The notes under the pieces: model-generated
Told to the model about the DNA's origin: nothing
The model's database searches: none
The model's input: the letters and a program-made list of their open reading frames with translations, nothing else
In this document: piece by piece, positions 9,445 to 64,000 of the stretch
How the letters are laid out: every line of letters begins with the position of its first letter
Position numbering within the stretch: the first letter of the stretch is position 1
Translations under genes and position numbers: made by a program
Assembly: GCA_016214845.1 (NCBI GenBank)
Contig: JACRMS010000033.1
Location: 62,001-126,000 of the forward strand
Direction: 5' to 3'
Origin: Nitrospirota bacterium
Lineage (GTDB): Bacteria; Nitrospirota; Thermodesulfovibrionia; UBA6902
Length of the DNA stretch: 64,000 bases

Positions 9445-9506
9445 TGTCATGCTGAACTTGTTTCAGCAACAAATAACGAGACCCCTGAATCAAGTTCAGG
9501 GTGACA
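9445..9506. repeat. TGTCATGCTGAAC-type intergenic palindromic repeat
   Basis: TGTCATGCTGAACTTG at the left end faces CAAGTTCAGGGTGACA at the right end, with a second partial dyad inside. Related copies are at 57728-57795 and 62962-63051. All lie between genes. Confidence 0.7.
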
Positions 9507-55075: not shown

Positions 55076-56002
55076 ATGAATTTTATGTATCTGTATTTAC
55101 CGGTTGCATTAACAAGTATTAACATCCTGATCCCGGTCGGGCTTGGCCTCGCGGTAGGCCTGCTGTCGGGTCTTTTCGGAGTCGGAGGCGGCTTCCTGAT
55201 GACGCCTCTTTTGATAATGTTCGGCATCCCGTCAACTGTCGCGGCGGCAACGGACTCAAACCAGATAGTGGCGGCGTCAACGTCAGGCACTTACGCCCAC
55301 TGGAAGGTCGGCAACGTGGATTTTAAGATGGGGCTTTACCTTCTTGCGGGAGGCTTTGTCGGCGGGCTACTCGGAGTCCAGGGCATCAAGGTCCTGCACG
55401 CAATGGGCAACGCTGACTTTGTAATAAAAATGACCTACGTGCTCATGCTCGGCATAGTCGGCACTTACATGTTCATCGAGAGCCTGACCAGCATGAAGAA
55501 AAAGAAGACGGTGGAAGTGAAGGCTGAAAAAGAATCAGCGATGACAAGAGTCCTGAAGTCGCTTCCTCTTCAAACACGTTTTGAAAAATCAGGCGTTACA
55601 CATTCACTTTTAATCCCGGTTTTTTTCGGCGGTTTTGTCGGGATACTTGCGGCGATAATGGGAGTAGGCGGCGGCTTTCTGATGGTGCCGGTCATGGTCT
55701 ACATCCTGAGAATGCCGATGCATGTCGTTGTCGGCACGAGCCTTTTTCAGATATTGTTCAACTGCATTGAGGTCACATTTTTACAGGCATATACAAATCA
55801 CAGCGTGGATTTCATCCTTGCGGTGCTCTTATTGTTAGGCTCCACAGTCGGGGCGCAGGTTGGAGCAGTATTCGGCAGAAAACTAAAAGGCGAACAGCTC
55901 AAGGTAATACTTGCCGTAATCGTATTGGCCGTAACGGTCAAGATAGTCTTTGAACTTACACTAACACCGGCATTACTTATATCACAGGCAGGAGGACACT
56001 AA
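55076..56002 (+). CDS. TauE/SafE-family anion exporter
   Basis: 308 residues. Two halves with glycine motifs GLFGVGGGFLMTPLLIMFGI and IMGVGGGFLMVPVMVYILRM, about eight membrane helices and a polar central loop (SMKKKKTVEVKAEKES). This is the standard-length member among the three in the window. It exports sulfite, sulfoacetate or similar anions in known relatives. AAGGAGAG precedes the ATG. The next gene starts one base after its stop region (TAAGATG), giving a coupled exporter-partner pair. Confidence 0.87.
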   Translation: MNFMYLYLPVALTSINILIPVGLGLAVGLLSGLFGVGGGFLMTPLLIMFGIPSTVAAATDSNQIVAASTSGTYAHWKVGNVDFKMGLYLLAGGFVGGLLGVQGIKVLHAMGNADFVIKMTYVLMLGIVGTYMFIESLTSMKKKKTVEVKAEKESAMTRVLKSLPLQTRFEKSGVTHSLLIPVFFGGFVGILAAIMGVGGGFLMVPVMVYILRMPMHVVVGTSLFQILFNCIEVTFLQAYTNHSVDFILAVLLLLGSTVGAQVGAVFGRKLKGEQLKVILAVIVLAVTVKIVFELTLTPALLISQAGGH

Positions 56003-56003
56003 G

Positions 56004-56813
56004 ATGAAAGAAGACAGAAGGCAGAAGTCAGAACACAGAAGACGGATTATCCCGATGATTATCTTTGCGCTTTGCGCTTTGCTCTTTGCTCTACGCAGTA
56101 ATACATCGGCGGAGCTGACGGCTGTCGCAAACCATGACCATATCAAGATAGATTTCTTTTATCACGGCAGCACTGTCAGTGTGAAAGGGACATCTGATCC
56201 CGGTGTAGACCTGGTCATTAAAATAACTTCACCGGACGGGCACGAGGTATTGAAGCAAAAAGGAAAGATGGCCGGCATCCTGTGGATGAATACCGGCACA
56301 TTGAATTTCGAGAACACGCCGGACCTCTACTCCGTTCACAGCACAAAAAAGCTTGAAGATCTTTTGAGCAGGGATGAAATGGACAAATACGTTATCGGTT
56401 ATCCGGCCCTCGAAAAGCACATTGAGTTGACCCCGGTTTCAAAGGGAGAAGAGAAAGATAAATGGTTCAATGAATTTGTGCGCTTCAAGGAATCTTCAAA
56501 ACTGTACGCGGCGTCTTCAGGGAAGATATCCACCACAATGTCAAACGGCAGACAGAATTATTACATCATGACCGAGTGGCCCTATCAGGCCCCTCCCGGC
56601 AACTACCTTGTGACCGTGTACGCGGTAAAAGATAAAATGGTCGTCGAGAAGGCAGAGGCCAAGGTGCTGGTTGAACAGGTCGGCGTTATAAAGACACTTT
56701 CAAGCATGGCCAAGAACAGCGGCGCGTTATACGGATTTTTGTCTATAGTAATCGCGCTTGGGGCAGGATTCGGGGTCGGCCTGATATTCAGAAAAGGCGG
56801 AGGTTCACACTAA
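56004..56813 (+). CDS. TIGR02186-type (Alph_Pro_TM) extracytoplasmic membrane protein
   Basis: 269 residues. An N-terminal signal or anchor (PMIIFALCALLFALRS) is preceded by a highly charged stretch KEDRRQKSEHRRR. The large outside domain starts KIDFFYHGSTVSVKG and contains LVIKITSPDGHEVLKQKGKM and YPALEKHIELTP; a C-terminal membrane helix (FLSIVIALGAGFGVGLIF) anchors it. This matches the TIGR02186 family, which is typically encoded next to TauE-like exporters and has no known biochemical role. The coupling to the TauE stop and to the USP gene two bases downstream suggests one functional unit. Confidence 0.82.
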   Translation: MKEDRRQKSEHRRRIIPMIIFALCALLFALRSNTSAELTAVANHDHIKIDFFYHGSTVSVKGTSDPGVDLVIKITSPDGHEVLKQKGKMAGILWMNTGTLNFENTPDLYSVHSTKKLEDLLSRDEMDKYVIGYPALEKHIELTPVSKGEEKDKWFNEFVRFKESSKLYAASSGKISTTMSNGRQNYYIMTEWPYQAPPGNYLVTVYAVKDKMVVEKAEAKVLVEQVGVIKTLSSMAKNSGALYGFLSIVIALGAGFGVGLIFRKGGGSH

Positions 56814-56815
56814 TT

Positions 56816-57673
56816 ATGTATCAGAAAATATTAGTCGGATATGATGATTCACTGCACAGCAGGGCGGCGCTTATCGAGGCCTCCAACTGGATAAAAAGAC
56901 ACGGGGGAAAACTTATCCTCACCCATGCCGTTTATTTTGACACGGAGGAATTCGGCATTGCTCCTGCTCAGTCTGAAAAACGCCTGAAGGTCGGGGAAAA
57001 GATCTGCGTTCAGACAAAAGAGATGGTGACTACAGAGTTCGGTATCGATGTGCAGACCCTGCTCTGTGAAGGAGACCCGTCAAACGTCATAGTGGATGTA
57101 GCAAGTGAAAACAAGGCGGACCTTATTGTGCTTGGCACCTACGGCAGAAAAGGCCTGAACAGGCTTTTGATGGGAAGCGTGACATCACAGGTGATCCTGG
57201 ATTCTCCATCCGATGTGCTTATCGTAAAAAAACCGTGCAGCAAATGCACCGGGGAATACAAATCAATTCTGGTCCCTTTTGACGGCTCGGCGTTCAGCAA
57301 GATGTCGCTCAACCGCGCCATTGAATTGTCCCATATCGACGGGGCGCAGATCACCGTGCTTTATGTTATCCCCCGCTATGAAGAAATGATAGATTTCTTT
57401 AAGAGCGATTCAATAAAGAACAGCCTCCATGAGGAAGCGAAAAAAATAGTTGACGGCGCAAGCTATCTTGCCTCGATCCAGGGTGTGACCGTGAAAATGG
57501 AGATAGACGAAGGGCACGCGGCAGACAAAATAGCTGAGACCGCAAAGAGGCTGGGAATCGATCTGATAGTCATCGGAAGCTACGGCTACAGAGGAGTCAA
57601 TAAGGCAATTATGGGAAGCACCACTGAGAGGGTAATTATCAACGCGGCTTGCCCCATACTTGTTGTGAGGTGA
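56816..57673 (+). CDS. Tandem universal stress protein
   Basis: 285 residues, two USP domains. Domain 1 opens YQKILVGYDDSLHSRAALIE and has the ATP motif GTYGRKGLNRLLMGSVTS; domain 2 opens YKSILVPFDGSAFSKMSLNR and has GSYGYRGVNKAIMGSTTE, ending CPILVVR. A CSKC pair at the domain junction (KPCSKCTGE) could sense redox state or bind metal. It starts two bases after the TIGR02186 gene and is the last member of the sigma-54-driven operon, before a hairpin terminator. Confidence 0.88.
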   Translation: MYQKILVGYDDSLHSRAALIEASNWIKRHGGKLILTHAVYFDTEEFGIAPAQSEKRLKVGEKICVQTKEMVTTEFGIDVQTLLCEGDPSNVIVDVASENKADLIVLGTYGRKGLNRLLMGSVTSQVILDSPSDVLIVKKPCSKCTGEYKSILVPFDGSAFSKMSLNRAIELSHIDGAQITVLYVIPRYEEMIDFFKSDSIKNSLHEEAKKIVDGASYLASIQGVTVKMEIDEGHAADKIAETAKRLGIDLIVIGSYGYRGVNKAIMGSTTERVIINAACPILVVR

Positions 57674-57687
57674 AAAAAATAATGTAG

Positions 57688-57710
57688 GGGCACGTCGCGA
57701 CGTGCCCTTT
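57688..57710 (+). terminator. Hairpin terminator, GTAGGGGC family
   Basis: GGGCACGTCG and CGACGTGCCC are perfect 10-bp arms followed by TTTTG. Probable end of the USP-TauE-TIGR02186-USP operon. The palindrome belongs to the GTAGGGGC family. Confidence 0.75.
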
Positions 57711-57727
57711 TGTAAAAGCGCATTTGA

Positions 57728-57795
57728 TGTCATTCCGAACTTGTTTCGGAATCTAAAAAAAAGAACGGAGATGCTGAAACAAGTTCAGCATGACA
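57728..57795. repeat. TGTCATTCCGAAC-type palindromic repeat
   Basis: TGTCATTCCGAACTTG and CAAGTTCAGCATGACA face each other, with TTTCGGAATC and TGCTGAAAC inside. Its right end overlaps an ATG at 57790 that is not taken as a gene start. Confidence 0.65.
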
Positions 57796-57810
57796 ATCCG
57801 AGAGGTTTAC

Positions 57811-58230
57811 ATGAAAGGTTACAGAAAAATATTAATAGCAGTGAACGGTTCAAAGGATGTTCTTACGAAGGGCCTGAGACTGGCCCACGATGAAAAATGC
57901 TGGGTAACTGTTGTCAAGGTCATTCCTGCCAACGAAGGCGACCTGAATCTTGTGGGAGTCAAGAACATTGAAGACGTATTGAACAGCGGCGGGCAAAGGG
58001 CGGTTTCTGAATTGAAAGATATCGCTGAGGCCGAAGGCGCGTTAATAAAGACAAGGCTTGAAGAAGGCGCGCCTGACAAAAAGATCGTGGAAGTCGCGGA
58101 AGAGGAAAGATGCGACATTATCATAATGGGTGTGAAGAAACGCAACTGGCTCAGAAAGCTTTTCGGCGACAACACCGTCGGGAAGGTCATCAATCAGGCG
58201 CCCTGCCCTGTATTGGTTGTCGGAGCGTAG
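57811..58230 (+). CDS. Universal stress protein with degenerate ATP motif
   Basis: 139 residues. One USP domain: YRKILIAVNGSKDVLTKGLR, WVTVVKVIPANE, IKTRLEEGAPDKKIVEVAEE and C-terminal CPVLVVGA. Where ATP-binding USPs have GxxGxG, this has GVKKRNWLRKLFGDNTVGK, so ATP binding is doubtful. The ATG at 57811 is chosen because GAGAGG lies 5 bases upstream, and the upstream ATG at 57790 lies inside the repeat. It resembles the first domain of the tandem USP at 40189. Confidence 0.83.
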   Translation: MKGYRKILIAVNGSKDVLTKGLRLAHDEKCWVTVVKVIPANEGDLNLVGVKNIEDVLNSGGQRAVSELKDIAEAEGALIKTRLEEGAPDKKIVEVAEEERCDIIIMGVKKRNWLRKLFGDNTVGKVINQAPCPVLVVGA

Positions 58231-58325: not shown

Positions 58326-59972
58326 ATGTTTATACATGAAAAATTCGATAGGTTAATTAAAAGAGGGTTCCTGTCCGAAGCAGATTTGTACGGGACCGCA
58401 GAGGAATCAAAGTCTTCGGGGAAATACCCTGAGGACTTATTGATCGAAAGAGGCGTCCCGAAGCATGAGATATTGTTTTGCCTCGCCGGATATTACAATT
58501 ATCCTTTTACCGAGTACGATGAAAGCGTGTCAGCTTCTTATTTTCTGACAATGCGCCTGAACATGGAAAAGCTTAAGACCGCGCTCTGGTTCCCGCTTTC
58601 GGTAAGACAAAACAAGGCTGAGGTCATCGCATACGCCCCGGATGGTCCGGCAATTATTGAAGACATCAAAAGGACGCTGAGAGTTGAGGACATTGAATTT
58701 ATTATCGCCCTCCCCTCTGACATCATCAGGATCATCGAGCACAGCTTTGATGTAAATCCCGGGTTCCCGCCTCCGGCAGGCAGGACGCCGCTTGCAAAGG
58801 TCAGGACGTTCCTTGCGGAAAGACGCTCCCTGTACGCGTGTCACAGGACATCGCTCGCAAAGGGACGGACTGGGCTTGCCTTTCTTCGCACCGGGATATC
58901 TTTCATGACCATTTCAATGGTGCTTTTGAGGATCTTCGGCGCGGGGTATTTAAACATAATTGAGGCGATACTTTTCGTTGCGGGAATCGTGATTGCGGTA
59001 GACGGAATTATCTGGTATCTGCCCGCAAGAAAAACCGGCAAGAATATAACCGGCTGCTCCTCAACGGAGCCGACATGGGGAACGACGGTGCTTCAAGCGC
59101 ATGATGCTGAAAAAAATCCGCGCTTCACACGCTCCGGCGTTGTGCAGGATGCGGACAAACTGCGCGCGGGATGGGAAAATCTGTCCCCGGTAATGAGGAG
59201 GAGATTTCTTGCAAGCGACAGGACTGACATGGCCGAGGAGAGGACTACCCTTGCCTGTTTCAGGACGCTCATGGCGCGGGCGCGCACGGGGCTTGCATTT
59301 ACGCGCACGGGTGTTGCATTTACCGGACTGGGCATCGCGCTGCTAAGACAATTCCATGAAGGCCCCTGGACGATATTTGACGCGGCCCTCGTTTTGATCG
59401 GGACATTAATGGCCATGGAAGGTTTTTACTGGTACTTCCCCGGCAGGCACGCTGGCATGGAAGGATTTAGATCAGTGAAGAAGGCAGGCACAAATCAGAG
59501 CATATGGGATTTTGTTTTTCCTCCCGCGATCAATCAACCCGGTTCTCAATACGAACATTTCCCGCCTGTAAAAGCAGCTCACGCCCCGGGCATATGGGCG
59601 ACAACGGGCCTCGCGCTTGAAAGGACGCTGCTCGCTGACAGGCGTAATGTTATGGCAAGGCTCCGCACGGTCATGGCGCGGTCGAGAACAGGGCTGGCGT
59701 TTATCAGGACAGGGATGAGCATATCCGCGGTCGGCATGGGGCTTATGGTTTATTTCGGCGTTGCTAATATCGCATGGACGATATTTAATGCCGCCTTGAT
59801 ATTGACCGGATTAGCATTTATTGCAGACGGCCTTTACTGGCATATTCCCGCTGAGAAAACAAAACAGCAATTCCCGTACTGTTTCGGAGATATGGAGATC
59901 AGTGTCCCGGACTACGGCAAGCCTGTACGCGGATGGGGGAAGGTGGTTTTCAACAATGATAACGACGGCTGA
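58326..59972 (+). CDS. MshEN-like domain plus three expanded DUF202 membrane domains
   Basis: 548 residues. Residues ~1-145 resemble the N-terminal domain of GspE/MshE ATPases (KFDRLIKRGFLSEADL, LLIERGVPKHEI), which in several proteins binds c-di-GMP. Three DUF202-type units follow, each an array R-T-x-L-A-x-x followed by two membrane helices: Arg at 153, 160, 167, 174, 181, 188; at 299, 306, 313, 320, 327; and at 433, 440, 447, 454, 461. Each array ends RTGLAF.RTG and leads to a hydrophobic pair ending WYLPAR, WYFPGR or WHIPAE. Overlaps the next gene by 17 bases. Function unknown; membrane signalling is inferred from the operon. Confidence 0.82.
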   Translation: MFIHEKFDRLIKRGFLSEADLYGTAEESKSSGKYPEDLLIERGVPKHEILFCLAGYYNYPFTEYDESVSASYFLTMRLNMEKLKTALWFPLSVRQNKAEVIAYAPDGPAIIEDIKRTLRVEDIEFIIALPSDIIRIIEHSFDVNPGFPPPAGRTPLAKVRTFLAERRSLYACHRTSLAKGRTGLAFLRTGISFMTISMVLLRIFGAGYLNIIEAILFVAGIVIAVDGIIWYLPARKTGKNITGCSSTEPTWGTTVLQAHDAEKNPRFTRSGVVQDADKLRAGWENLSPVMRRRFLASDRTDMAEERTTLACFRTLMARARTGLAFTRTGVAFTGLGIALLRQFHEGPWTIFDAALVLIGTLMAMEGFYWYFPGRHAGMEGFRSVKKAGTNQSIWDFVFPPAINQPGSQYEHFPPVKAAHAPGIWATTGLALERTLLADRRNVMARLRTVMARSRTGLAFIRTGMSISAVGMGLMVYFGVANIAWTIFNAALILTGLAFIADGLYWHIPAEKTKQQFPYCFGDMEISVPDYGKPVRGWGKVVFNNDNDG

Positions 59973-61182
59973 AATAACTGTGGACAAGAGATTTCACATA
60001 CTTCTGAATTGGGGCGTTATAACAAAAGAGCAGCTCGCTGATGCCGAAAGGACAGCCGCTGCGAGAAGCATTGACCTTGAAAAGGTCCTCATCAGGGAAT
60101 ACGGCATTCCGCACCAAACAGTATTGAACGCGCTTTCAGAATATTATAAATGCCCTTCCGCCGAATACGATGAAAGGCTGCCTGTTCCTCCTGAACTTTT
60201 GTCCGGCCTGGACGGAGAACGGCTTTCCATAAGCCAGTGGTTCCCGATCATCAAAGAAGGAGACACCGCTGTCATAGCCGCAAATAATCCCGAAGACCCC
60301 GTGGTGATCGAGGAAGTCAGGAAATATATCAAGGCAGAGAGATATGAGATCCGCGTGGCACTCGGCGAGGACATACAATGGTTCATACAGGACTTCCTCC
60401 ACGCAAAGCCCGGCCTGCTCATAGGCACTGAAAGGACCGGACTTGCATACTGGCGCAATACCATGGCTCACTGGAGGACGAGGCTCGCGTGTTACAGGAC
60501 CGACCTTGCAGCAGCAAAGACCGACCTTGCATTTCTCAGGTGGGGGCTCGGCCTTATCGCGATATCCGACACCCTTATCCGCACGCATAAGTACGAATCG
60601 CTTTTATATTTTTACTGGCTCATGATCGCGGCGGGTTTTTCGCTCGCAGTCTTCGGCCTGCGCGGTTATCTTAAAATTCGTCGGACAAGGTTGAAGCCTC
60701 CCGGACACTATACGCTCGTTGAGGTGACCGCGGCAATCCTGAATTTCCTTGAGAACTATCACTTCATCGAACAAGCAGGATTTCAGTCAGTGACAAAAAA
60801 GACCATGCTGGCGCGTCTCGGAGATTTTCTTGCCGACTACTGCACCATCCTTTATCCATCGCCCGCAAGCAGGGAGCGCACGCATCTCGCGCGTGAGAGA
60901 AACGTCCTCGCGGGGCACCGCACCGTGGCCGCGTGTTACCGGACCATTTACGCCAGGGCAAGGACAGGGCTTGCCTTTATAAGGACAGGCGTTACCTTTA
61001 TGAGCGTCGGGCTTGGACTCATGCGTTATTTTGGATTCAGCTTCCTGACGATGTTCGATTCCCTGCTTGTTATAATGGGGATATTAATGCTCGTTGACGG
61101 CGCGTTGTGGTACCTGCCCGTGAGAAAGGAGCAGTCTGAGATACCGCGATGCCCCGTGCCGCAACAGGTGATAAAATCCTGA
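59956..61182 (+). CDS. MshEN-like domain plus two expanded DUF202 membrane domains
   Basis: 408 residues from the ATG at 59956 (GGGGAAGGTGG upstream); an earlier in-frame start at 59821 lies inside the previous gene. Residues ~1-150 resemble the GspE/MshE N-terminal domain (LLNWGVITKEQLADAE, VLIREYGIPHQTVLNALSEY). Arrays of R-T-x-L-A-x-x follow with basic residues exactly 7 apart: 160, 167, 174, 181, 188 (Lys), 195, and 308, 315, 322, 329, 336, 343. Each is followed by two membrane helices. It is a paralogue of the preceding protein with one DUF202 unit fewer. The kinase gene starts one base after its stop. Confidence 0.82.
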   Translation: MITTAEITVDKRFHILLNWGVITKEQLADAERTAAARSIDLEKVLIREYGIPHQTVLNALSEYYKCPSAEYDERLPVPPELLSGLDGERLSISQWFPIIKEGDTAVIAANNPEDPVVIEEVRKYIKAERYEIRVALGEDIQWFIQDFLHAKPGLLIGTERTGLAYWRNTMAHWRTRLACYRTDLAAAKTDLAFLRWGLGLIAISDTLIRTHKYESLLYFYWLMIAAGFSLAVFGLRGYLKIRRTRLKPPGHYTLVEVTAAILNFLENYHFIEQAGFQSVTKKTMLARLGDFLADYCTILYPSPASRERTHLARERNVLAGHRTVAACYRTIYARARTGLAFIRTGVTFMSVGLGLMRYFGFSFLTMFDSLLVIMGILMLVDGALWYLPVRKEQSEIPRCPVPQQVIKS

Positions 61183-61183
61183 T

Positions 61184-62596
61184 ATGAGAATTGAACGCAA
61201 GATCATACTTTCCGATACATTCAAGCTCGTGCTGATCGTCCTGATAGGCATATTCGCCCTTCAGAATATCAATCTCGTGCTCACGAAACTCCGTTTTGTC
61301 GAGATCGCTGACGACCTCAACGCGTCGTTCCTTGAGATGAGGCTTTCAGAAAAGAATTTTTTCCTTTACAAAGACGAAAAGGCGCTCCCCGATATCAGGA
61401 CGAAGATAAACAAGACCATGCGGACTATAGAGCTTGCACAGAAAGACGTGGTGCGCGCCGTAGGTGAAGAAAATCTCCAGACGCTAAGGCTGTACCTGAA
61501 AAATTATTCGGATGTCGTGGAGGAGATCGGAAAAAGCAATAACCGGGACGCCGGGCTGGAAATAAAACTCCGGACCGAGGGAAGGAAATTAAAAGAATTC
61601 TCAGAGAACATCGCCCACATCGAGAGGTTGAGTGTCAACGACATCTTTTCAAGATCGAAAAGGATTCTGTTCTACTGCTTTGTGGCCATATTTTTGTCCG
61701 CCATCGTGGTGAGCCATTTTCTCTCACAGAAGATCGTGAGGTCCCTGCGGGAAATTGAAAATCTTGCAAAGACCATATCAGAGGGAAAGTTCGATACGAT
61801 CGAAGGCATAAATACACGGGATGAACTGGGTTCAGTTATTACAGCCATCAACTCCATGTCCGATGAGCTCAGGCACCGCGAGGAGCAGATCATCCAGTCC
61901 AAGAAACTCGCGTCCCTCGGAGTCCTCACCGCTGGAGTAGCGCATGAATTGACGAACCCGGTCAATAATATCTCGATGATCGCACAGACTTATGCGGAGC
62001 TGTATGACAAGCTGAGCAGGGAGCAAAGAATAGAATTCATGACCAGGATTGACGGCGAGACAGACCGGGTCAAAAATATTGTGAAAAACCTCCTCGACTT
62101 TTCAAAGCCCAAGGAGGCGGAACTTGAAGAGACTGACATCAATACAGTTATACATAAGACGCTCCTTCTCATGCAGAATACGCTTGACGTCTATAATATT
62201 GAGACAAAATTAAACCTGAAAGACGGACTCCCCCGTGTTTTTATTGACGGCCATCAAATACAGCAGGTGCTCGTAAATCTTATCACCAACGCCGTGCAGG
62301 CAATGCCAAATGGAGGAAAAATTATTATTGCATCAAGGACCGGGGCCAGCAAAGACCACATTGAAATAACGGTCATGGATTCGGGAAAAGGGATCCCGCC
62401 TGAATACCTGCCGCATATTTTTGACCCGTTCTTCAGCACCAAGGGAGAGGGAGGGACCGGGCTCGGGCTTTCGGTTAGTTACGGAATAATAAAAAATCAT
62501 AAAGGCGAGATCAGAGTGGCAAGCAAGGTAGGTGTCGGCACCACTTTTACGATTGATCTGCCGGTCAATAAAAAACAGGAGGAGATAAATGTCTGA
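61184..62596 (+). CDS. Membrane sensor histidine kinase of the DUF202 operon (HK-C)
   Basis: 470 residues. Membrane helix 1 (about 11-30), a short ~130-residue periplasmic helical sensor (FVEIADDLNASFLEMRLSEK), membrane helix 2 (about 160-180), HAMP (KTISEGKFDTIEGI), HisKA with phospho-His in GVAHELTNPVNNI and HATPase (NLITNAVQAM, DSGKGIPPEYL, GTGLGLSVS). The sensor resembles that of HK-A and HK-B but is about 100 residues shorter. Coupled to the upstream DUF202 gene and overlapping the receiver gene by 8 bases, so all four are one operon. Confidence 0.92.
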   Translation: MRIERKIILSDTFKLVLIVLIGIFALQNINLVLTKLRFVEIADDLNASFLEMRLSEKNFFLYKDEKALPDIRTKINKTMRTIELAQKDVVRAVGEENLQTLRLYLKNYSDVVEEIGKSNNRDAGLEIKLRTEGRKLKEFSENIAHIERLSVNDIFSRSKRILFYCFVAIFLSAIVVSHFLSQKIVRSLREIENLAKTISEGKFDTIEGINTRDELGSVITAINSMSDELRHREEQIIQSKKLASLGVLTAGVAHELTNPVNNISMIAQTYAELYDKLSREQRIEFMTRIDGETDRVKNIVKNLLDFSKPKEAELEETDINTVIHKTLLLMQNTLDVYNIETKLNLKDGLPRVFIDGHQIQQVLVNLITNAVQAMPNGGKIIIASRTGASKDHIEITVMDSGKGIPPEYLPHIFDPFFSTKGEGGTGLGLSVSYGIIKNHKGEIRVASKVGVGTTFTIDLPVNKKQEEINV

Positions 62597-62957
62597 TCAC
62601 AGGATCATGGTTATTGACGACGAGAAGATCGTCTGCGACATGGCAAAGATGTCCCTTGAGCAGGAGGGATATTCGGTTGAGACTTTTTTGAACGCGGAGC
62701 CTGCGCTTGCAAGATTGAAGGAGACCAGCTTCAACGTAGTTGTAACGGATTACAAGATGAAGGGCATAGACGGGATGGAAGTGCTGAGGACGGTGAAGAA
62801 ACTCTATCCGGAAACAAAGGTCATCATGATTACCGCGTTTGCAAATCTTGACACTGCGATAGAGGCCTTGCGCGGGGACGTGCATGACTTCTTTCCCAAG
62901 CCGGTAAAGATAAAGGAGCTGAAGGCCTCCATAGGGCGCGCGCTGGTGAAACAATAA
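62589..62957 (+). CDS. Single-domain response regulator of the DUF202 operon
   Basis: 122 residues, receiver only: DDEK near residue 11, acceptor Asp in VVVTDYKMKG, Thr in IMITAFA and Lys in FFPKPVK. No output domain. Overlap with the kinase gene marks it as the cognate partner. With no DNA-binding output, its phosphorylated form may act on the MshEN-DUF202 proteins or on the PEP-synthase-like product downstream; that is inference from operon position only. Confidence 0.9.
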   Translation: MSDHRIMVIDDEKIVCDMAKMSLEQEGYSVETFLNAEPALARLKETSFNVVVTDYKMKGIDGMEVLRTVKKLYPETKVIMITAFANLDTAIEALRGDVHDFFPKPVKIKELKASIGRALVKQ

Positions 62958-62961
62958 TCAA

Positions 62962-63051
62962 GAGACCCTGAAACAAGTTCAGGGTGACACAATGTCTCTG
63001 ACTGTCATGCTGAACCTTGTGCTGAACTTGATTCGTATTGTTTCAGCATAT
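62962..63051. repeat. Composite TGTCATGCTGAAC-type palindromic repeat
   Basis: GACCCTGAAACAAGTTCAGG at the left and TGTCATGCTGAACCTTG, then TTTCAGCA at the right; parts of at least two repeat units fused head to head. Same family as 9445 and 57728. Confidence 0.65.
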
Positions 63052-63075: not shown

Positions 63076-64000
63076 ATGAAAAGCTTTTTCGAACACCTGA
63101 AATCCATTCTGGAATCTCACACAAAGCGGCCGGGCAGCGTCCTGTCCTTCAAGGACACTTTTGACAGTTTCAGGGAAGTGCTTGACAGTAACAACAGGGC
63201 GCTTGAACTTATCACGGACATGGGCGAGAAGCTTGGTGGGGATTACCTCTTTGATATAAATTACATAAAAAGCTCTTACTCGGACTTATATTCTGCAATG
63301 TCACAATCCGTGCGGAGCTTTGATGCGCTTACTGCAGGCAAGTACGCTGAGCTCCATGACGTGTTCAGCCGCATTGATAACAGGACCAAGGGCATGATAT
63401 TCGATATAACTTCGGCAACCACGGAAATTACCGCCTTCTACGAAGATATCACATGGGACATGTCAGGTGAGATCGGCGGGAAAAACGCAAACCTCTCCGA
63501 ACTGAAAAATTATCTTAAGCTCAATGTCCCTGACGCCTTTGCCGTGACAACTCATGCCTTTGATGAATTAGTCGAGCACAACGGGTTAAGGCACAAGATC
63601 GGAGCACTCTCTGAAAATGAAGTCAACGGGCAGGCGCTTAAGGAAATACGGGAGACGATCTTAAATGCGGAAATCCCGGCCTCTGTTTACAGCGCCATTT
63701 ACAGCGCCGTCAGGAAGCTCAAGGCGAGATGCGGGCCGGAGTGTTTTCTTGCCGTGAGGAGCAGCGCTACCGAGGAGGACAGCGAATTTTCATTCGCCGG
63801 CCAGTTCGAGACAATATTAAATGTACCTTTGGAAAGCCGGGAAGTCATGGAGGCTTATAAAAAAGTTGCCGCGAGCCTGTTCTCGGCAAAGACTGCGGCT
63901 TATTTGAAACAGATGGGATTCGACATCAGGAATATCAAAATGGCGGCGGCCTGCGTGGTAATGGTGGATGCGGCGGTCAGCGGCGTAATTTATTCATCAA
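63076..64000 (+). CDS. PEP/pyruvate-binding-domain protein (PEP synthase-like), 3' end outside window
   Basis: The frame is open from the ATG at 63076 to the window edge (308 codons). Residues ~1-150 are a helical extension not found in ordinary PEP synthase (SFFEHLKSILESHTKR). From ~155 the nucleotide-binding domain of PEP synthase/PPDK appears: GGKNANLSELKNYLKLNVPD, FAVTTHAFDELVEHNG, FLAVRSSATEEDSEFSFAGQ and ETILNVPLE. AVRSSATEEDS is the ATP-binding signature. The full protein should have a phosphohistidine and a catalytic domain further on. The N-terminal extension, unusual for PpsA, may be regulatory. Confidence 0.85.
   Translation, partial: MKSFFEHLKSILESHTKRPGSVLSFKDTFDSFREVLDSNNRALELITDMGEKLGGDYLFDINYIKSSYSDLYSAMSQSVRSFDALTAGKYAELHDVFSRIDNRTKGMIFDITSATTEITAFYEDITWDMSGEIGGKNANLSELKNYLKLNVPDAFAVTTHAFDELVEHNGLRHKIGALSENEVNGQALKEIRETILNAEIPASVYSAIYSAVRKLKARCGPECFLAVRSSATEEDSEFSFAGQFETILNVPLESREVMEAYKKVAASLFSAKTAAYLKQMGFDIRNIKMAAACVVMVDAAVSGVIYSS

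Follow-up and report, generated by a model that had tools for sequence, protein, structure and literature searches.

Heptad arginine arrays in a conserved pair of MshEN-DUF202 proteins encoded beside a two-component system in a Nitrospirota bacterium

A 64,000-nucleotide window of a Nitrospirota bacterium genome (assembly GCA_016214845.1, contig JACRMS010000033.1, positions 62,001 to 126,000 of the forward strand) contains two adjacent genes, here designated A and B, and raises the question of what membrane proteins that repeat an arginine at exactly every seventh residue do with so much regularly spaced positive charge. Four plus-strand genes fill positions 58326-62957 of this window: A, B, a histidine kinase and a single-domain receiver. 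A preliminary description had proposed that a nucleotide-binding domain, an arginine ladder and a receiver cooperate here at the membrane. The analysis presented below points instead to A and B as a two-chain, pseudo-pentameric DUF202 module, whose arginine-lined interior may form a controlled conduit or receptor for an anion or polyanion, a reading that we hold with rather less than even confidence. The two genes and their arginine arrays are as follows.

58326..59972, plus strand: gene A, 548 residues, MshEN-fold domain and three DUF202 units
59956..61182, plus strand: gene B, 408 residues, MshEN-fold domain and two DUF202 units
58782..58889, plus strand: A array 1, R153-R188, six Arg, period 7
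59199..59306, plus strand: A array 2, R292-R327, six Arg, period 7
59622..59708, plus strand: A array 3, R433-R461, five Arg, period 7
60433..60540, plus strand: B array 1, R160-R195, five Arg and K188, period 7
60877..60984, plus strand: B array 2, R308-R343, six Arg, period 7

The arginine arrays and their conservation

Pfam searches bore out the proposed composition of three DUF202 units in A and two in B, each set preceded by a GspE/MshE-type N-terminal domain. DUF202 (PF02656, cut-off 23.4 bits) was found in three stretches of A (7.8e-15, 55.5 bits) and two stretches of B (3.3e-05, 24.7 bits), and MshEN (PF05157, cut-off 23.1 bits) in both A (9.1e-08, 32.4 bits) and B (5.9e-09, 36.2 bits). 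Heptads of the R-T-x-L-A type are present on the first membrane helix of the DUF202 units. The exact heptad spacing, with five or six basic residues per unit and one lysine, stood as first described, but the basic positions number 29 (28 Arg and one Lys) rather than 28. None of 20,000 composition shuffles matched the observed number of chains of five or more. The assumption that DUF202 normally has about two heptads did not hold: ordinary single-unit DUF202 proteins of this and related genomes carry 3-4 rings, and the arrays of A and B are therefore an extension by two to three rings.

Alignment of 61 A and 58 B relatives revealed Arg in 1732 of 1733 array cells, the sole Lys being K188 of B in this window. 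The pattern of six, six and five residues in A and six and six in B recurs in practically every intact pair, and longer counts reflect one additional basic residue adjoining an array. In the heptad register with Arg at position a, the residues at b (mostly Thr), d (Leu or Met) and e (Ala) are conserved while c, f and g vary; the mean entropy is 0.38 bits at a/b/d/e versus 1.03 bits at c/f/g (p = 2e-9, or 3e-5 when a is excluded). Acidic residues make up no more than 0.2% at a, b, d and e and 7-10% at c, f and g. The conserved a/b/d/e face and the near-absence of acids suggest that the arginine charge faces a conserved interface without acidic neighbors in the arrays. Judged in this way from sequence conservation, an indirect measure of the direction of the stripe, the arginine side appears to be a conserved and uncompensated positive face, as would be expected for a shared interior or a bound anion.

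The same data bear on a purely structural role, in which the arrays would be a conserved repeat resembling a coiled coil, its arginines fixing the helices to the head groups of phospholipids, with A and B acting as assembly factors. Positive charge beside membrane segments is common, and the arrays do adjoin hydrophobic helices; however, lipid anchoring requires neither an invariance of 1732/1733 with Lys almost excluded nor exact spacing maintained over 29-36 residues in every unit, which makes this role improbable.

AlphaFold2 models, computed for A and B separately as single chains (pLDDT 85.6 and pTM 0.80 for A; pLDDT 81.6 and pTM 0.61 for B), predict a mixed domain at the N-terminus and, in each unit, an unbroken helix of about 50-55 residues that holds the whole arginine array and runs on as the first membrane helix (residues 153-204, 288-342 and 428-477 in A; 156-210 and 304-359 in B). 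One second long helix follows, giving two predicted membrane helices per unit. The expectation of a straight helix with an arginine stripe entering the membrane thus agrees with the models, in which the helix continues into the first hydrophobic segment. If each unit crosses the membrane twice, the arrays and the MshEN domains would all be found on one face of it, presumably the cytoplasmic one.

The five-unit count and the comparison with yeast VTC

The combination of MshEN with DUF202 is present elsewhere and conserved in more than 80 genomes, as a homology search revealed; scanning of the collection gave 88 relatives, of which 80 were kept. The hosts are Nitrospirota, Desulfobacterota-type metagenome-assembled genomes (MAGs), Acidithiobacillus and Actinomycetota MAGs, some of the Desulfobacterota-type MAGs being titled only "Deltaproteobacteria" and filed by the tree tool under Myxococcota. 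Of 61 near genomes, 15 contain a relative of A when any match is counted, and about eight a full-length one. The two genes stand side by side in 66/66 loci, with an overlap in 65; the apparent lack of A or B in some loci is an artefact of open reading frame (ORF) picking, which took long opposite-strand frames in GC-rich contigs. A census with the unit profile covered 230 genomes of the host's class, with at least three unit matches scored as positive. Forty-seven genomes were positive, 39 of them with exactly five units, five with six, two with eight, and one with three, in which the count ends at a contig edge. In two cases (L047 and G080), gene A is doubled beside B in the order A-A-B, resulting in eight DUF202 units in G080.

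When the units are placed in a tree, those of each type come together across phyla in a single group, with good support for A1, A2, A3 and B1 and weaker support for B2. As the units group by position across phyla, the five positions became distinct early and have been kept so since. Such fixed positions would fit a ring, although other fixed assemblies would give the same pattern. Within the host genus 2/10 genomes carry the pair, and the tree of relatives mixes phyla; the history of the pair therefore likely includes loss and transfer, a reading limited by record titles and bins.

A set of five DUF202-type domains is also the feature of VTC (Vtc1/Vtc3/Vtc4), the polyphosphate (polyP) polymerase-translocator of yeast. 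VTC is a 3:1:1 pentamer in which five first transmembrane helices surround a channel; basic residues line its upper wall, phosphate ions are found at the entrance, and mutation of the basic channel residues abolishes vacuolar polyP (PMC9911596). Both systems have a DUF202-type membrane domain with basic residues spaced by seven on the first membrane helix, and the five domains of the VTC complex (3:1:1) have their counterpart in the 3+2 units of A and B. A fragment of the Vtc1 pore helix containing K24 and R31 matches DUF202 (PF02656) with an E-value of 1.5e-11 from profile position 1, and the first unit of A matches the same profile from R174; this common start equates K24 and R31 of Vtc1 with R174 and R181 of A. 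Relative to these equivalent rings, A has an additional ring at greater depth (R188) and three more on the outer side (R153, R160 and R167). When this genome's plain DUF202 protein was searched against the PDB, Vtc1 chains ranked highest, with weak E-values (0.4-0.6); neither the sequence of A nor a profile covering the five units had a meaningful match there. A and B differ from VTC in the lack of an SPX or polymerase (TTM/VTC) domain according to Pfam, in the concatenation of their units on two chains, in having 5-6 rings where VTC has two, and in hosts that are mostly without known polyP synthases.

In the proposed mechanism, the three A units and two B units would form one pseudo-pentamer, whose five array helices would line a common interior that enters the membrane from the cytoplasmic side, in the manner of the VTC pore. 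Such an assembly would contain five complete rings of five arginines and an outer sixth ring of four, extending about 60 angstroms by helix geometry; at the level of B K188, the ring in this genome would consist of four Arg and one Lys. An anion or polyanion would be bound by these rings and either passed on or held. The oligomer, the pore, its ligand, the gating and the part played by the dikinase are proposals, built on what the analysis established: the architecture, the invariance of the arrays, the kinship of DUF202 with Vtc1, the MshEN fold, the loss of its motif and the gene linkage. A and B represent an evolutionarily fixed, concatenated five-unit version of DUF202 with distinct units at set positions, which makes the idea of a DUF202 pentamer directly testable in bacteria, one A:B pair being expected to supply a full ring. 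If correct, the proposal would tie a bacterial family to the polyP channel of yeast and provide a natural arginine ladder for the study of anion conduction or polyanion binding. In the literature searched, no description was found of bacterial DUF202 function, of MshEN joined with DUF202, or of YidH with polyP; the matches in PMC10434189 and PMC6393860 concern other DUF20xx numbers.

Single-unit bacterial DUF202 proteins (about 77-132 residues, PF02656), one of which is encoded in this genome (L001), share the R-T-x-L-A heptads and the membrane helix pair with A and B, but have one unit, 3-4 rings and no MshEN. In four genomes, the plain DUF202 gene is next to or not far from a gene for glycogen phosphorylase (DUF3417 + Phosphorylase) or for a permease. 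In this genome, the plain DUF202 gene (L001:1390-1788; G000 C33:140151-140390) overlaps the glycogen phosphorylase gene by 17 bp, and the association recurs in L036, L037 and L040.

The MshEN-fold domains and the two-component genes

The N-terminal domains of A and B were delimited by structural comparison with 5HTL.

58326..58754, plus strand: A residues 1-143, MshEN fold without c-di-GMP motif (5HTL match; motif in 0/61)
59980..60405, plus strand: B residues 9-150, MshEN fold without c-di-GMP motif (5HTL match; motif in 0/58)

The matches to 5HTL have a Z score of 13.9 with a root-mean-square deviation of 3.6 over 138 aligned residues for A, and 14.1 with 3.8 over 139 for B; 2D28 matched with Z scores of 12.7 (A) and 13.6 (B), and the second-best fold match was the N domain of XpsE. 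The MshEN profile match and the similarity to 5HTL, a structure with bound cyclic di-GMP (c-di-GMP), would suit a regulator of the MshE/PilF type, in which MshEN binds c-di-GMP and the DUF202 arrays relay the signal. MshEN domains that bind c-di-GMP contain two copies of a 24-residue RLG...Q motif (PMC5013675). This motif, whether in strict or relaxed form, was found in none of the 61 A and 58 B homologues; as the scanned proteins included no true positive control for the pattern, the c-di-GMP family NF053729 served as a second test, in which B reached 19.2 bits, below the cut-off of 38, and A had no match. About 23 of the 61 A homologues lack the N-terminal ~35 residues, where motif I would be located, and the N domain of XpsE has the same fold yet is a published non-binder of c-di-GMP (PMC5013675). 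Although the fold of the supposed nucleotide-binding domain was confirmed, the nucleotide-binding reading fails because the motif is found in 0/119 homologues even when relaxed, and control by c-di-GMP is very unlikely. The fold of these domains is the same as that of the MshEN, XpsE-N and PilB-N domains of type II secretion and type IV pilus ATPases; in contrast to those proteins, A and B have no Pfam match to the T2SSE ATPase domain, and the c-di-GMP motif has been lost, as in XpsE. The MshEN-fold domains of A and B would thus have given up c-di-GMP binding and would serve as protein-docking domains.

A partner for such docking may be encoded directly downstream.

61184..62596, plus strand: histidine kinase, 470 residues, HAMP, HisKA and HATPase
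62589..62957, plus strand: single-domain receiver, 122 residues

The genes had been described as abutting or overlapping, and the measured junctions are a 17 bp overlap between A and B, a 1 bp gap between B and the kinase, and an 8 bp overlap between the kinase and the receiver; the start of gene B is most likely the ATG at 59956 rather than the TTG of the longest frame. The linkage extends beyond this genome. Where the downstream order is visible, the kinase follows in 43/55 loci and the receiver in 38/51, with a PPDK-like protein in 31/45, all of these counts being lower bounds owing to ORF picking. In the kinase, two hydrophobic segments flank a loop of about 130 residues. The HisKA H-box is present in 48/48 neighboring kinases checked, and the H-box, the HATPase domain and the receiver domain that define a two-component system were all found. 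The receiver is 74-91% identical in five related loci. A possible cooperation of A and B with the receiver is suggested by gene order only. In the proposed conduit, the lone receiver, once phosphorylated by the kinase, would open or close the channel through the MshEN-fold domains.

The same linkage would also be expected if A and B were a membrane co-receptor or scaffold, in which the arginine helices bind a polyanion, acidic lipid or nucleic acid and signal the state of the ligand or membrane to the kinase, with output through the lone receiver. The tight association with kinase and receiver genes, the kinase's own membrane segments and an MshEN fold that lacks its ligand motif and suits protein docking all speak for such a role. 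However, two Acidithiobacillus pairs (L107 and L108) have no adjoining kinase or receiver, which argues that A and B are the core and the remainder is added control. In addition, a co-receptor leaves the fixed count of five and the correspondence with VTC unexplained, and the supposed fusion of B to the kinase, an 872-residue frame (L030:280-2898 / L068), is a frameshift, B continuing in another frame to its own stop. We therefore regard a co-receptor as possible but rather unlikely.

The dikinase neighbor, the candidate ligand and the surrounding genes

A further gene downstream bears on what the arrays might bind.

63076..64000, plus strand: PPDK-like dikinase, start only in the window; ATP-grasp domain, phosphohistidine domain and uncharacterized C-terminal domain

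The complete protein in a related locus (L039:1077-3665) has 862 residues. It resembles the superfamily of PPDK, phosphoenolpyruvate (PEP) synthase and rifamycin phosphotransferase in having an ATP-grasp domain and a phosphohistidine domain with an invariant catalytic histidine (His522, conserved in 83/83 homologues). It differs from this superfamily in lacking the PEP-binding TIM barrel (no PEP-utilizers_C match in four dikinase homologues) and in its C-terminal domain, which is strongly conserved and contains HD, HE and NxxFRFxGG motifs without a Pfam match. The subfamily is found in 41/47 genomes with A and B versus 8/183 without (Fisher 8e-31, uncorrected for shared ancestry). In the proposed mechanism, the dikinase probably makes, charges or consumes a phosphorylated ligand, and, if this is correct, the pair would indicate an uncharacterized dikinase as the source of that ligand. 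Desulfobacterota-type loci often contain two or three copies of the dikinase gene.

The kinship of DUF202 with Vtc1, the identical 7-residue spacing of the pore residues, the sum of five units and the linkage to a phosphohistidine dikinase might together indicate a bacterial VTC-like polyP translocator proper, supplied by the neighboring dikinase or another enzyme. Known polyP enzymes, however, are nearly absent from the class (PPK1 in 3/230, PPK2 in 0/230 and VTC in 2/230 genomes), the three PPK1-positive genomes all being less than 90% complete, and the class-wide family scan found none of PPK1, PPK2 and the VTC family in this genome. Outside the class, among 20 named genomes that carry the pair, three have PPK1 and seven have PPK2. 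A and B contain no polymerase domain. A dedicated polyP translocator is accordingly improbable. A role in polyP metabolism sought through co-occurrence with PPK1, PPK2 or VTC was unsupported in the class and mixed elsewhere. Still more doubtful, although of interest, is the variant in which the dikinase, as a previously unrecognized enzyme of this kind, produces a polymer rich in phosphate or a phosphorylated polyanion with no known polyP kinase involved, and the two-chain, pseudo-pentameric DUF202 pore, with its 29 basic residues, moves this product across the membrane under two-component control. Such a machine would be the prokaryotic equivalent of VTC, assembled from other enzymes; this we consider a long shot.

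Several considerations weigh against the arginine-lined conduit itself. The near-absence of known polyP synthases in the class makes polyP unlikely as a general ligand; the ligand would then be another anion or phosphorylated polymer or, more speculatively, polyP made by an unrecognized enzyme, a part for which no candidate other than the dikinase presents itself. The units of VTC have three membrane helices and those of A and B two in the predicted models. A structure search with A and B gave no VTC chain among the matches listed, a result that excludes nothing and supports nothing. Gating by the receiver is proposed from gene order only, and the Acidithiobacillus pairs have neither kinase nor receiver next to them; the cultured Acidithiobacillus montserratensis GG1-14 is one carrier of A and B in which no kinase gene adjoins the pair. 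Moreover, the observed conservation would be equally expected of a receptor or scaffold whose arginine face binds acidic lipids, nucleic acid or another protein.

In the surroundings of the locus, the region upstream of A (55076-58230) encodes a TauE/SafE permease, a TIGR02186/Alph_Pro_TM protein and two universal stress proteins, and such genes are often found 5' of A and B in many Nitrospirota loci. Downstream of the A/B locus in L039 (8039-12650), a three-gene run encodes a VTT-domain protein, a VirJ-type hydrolase and a lysyl-phosphatidylglycerol synthase-like protein. Intergenic inverted repeats of the CTGAAACAAGTTCAG type recur in the window at 9452-9499, 57735-57788 and 62968-63036, with 11 matches (up to 3 mismatches) against 2 expected, and one copy of this repeat flanks the block of A, B, kinase and receiver genes on either side.

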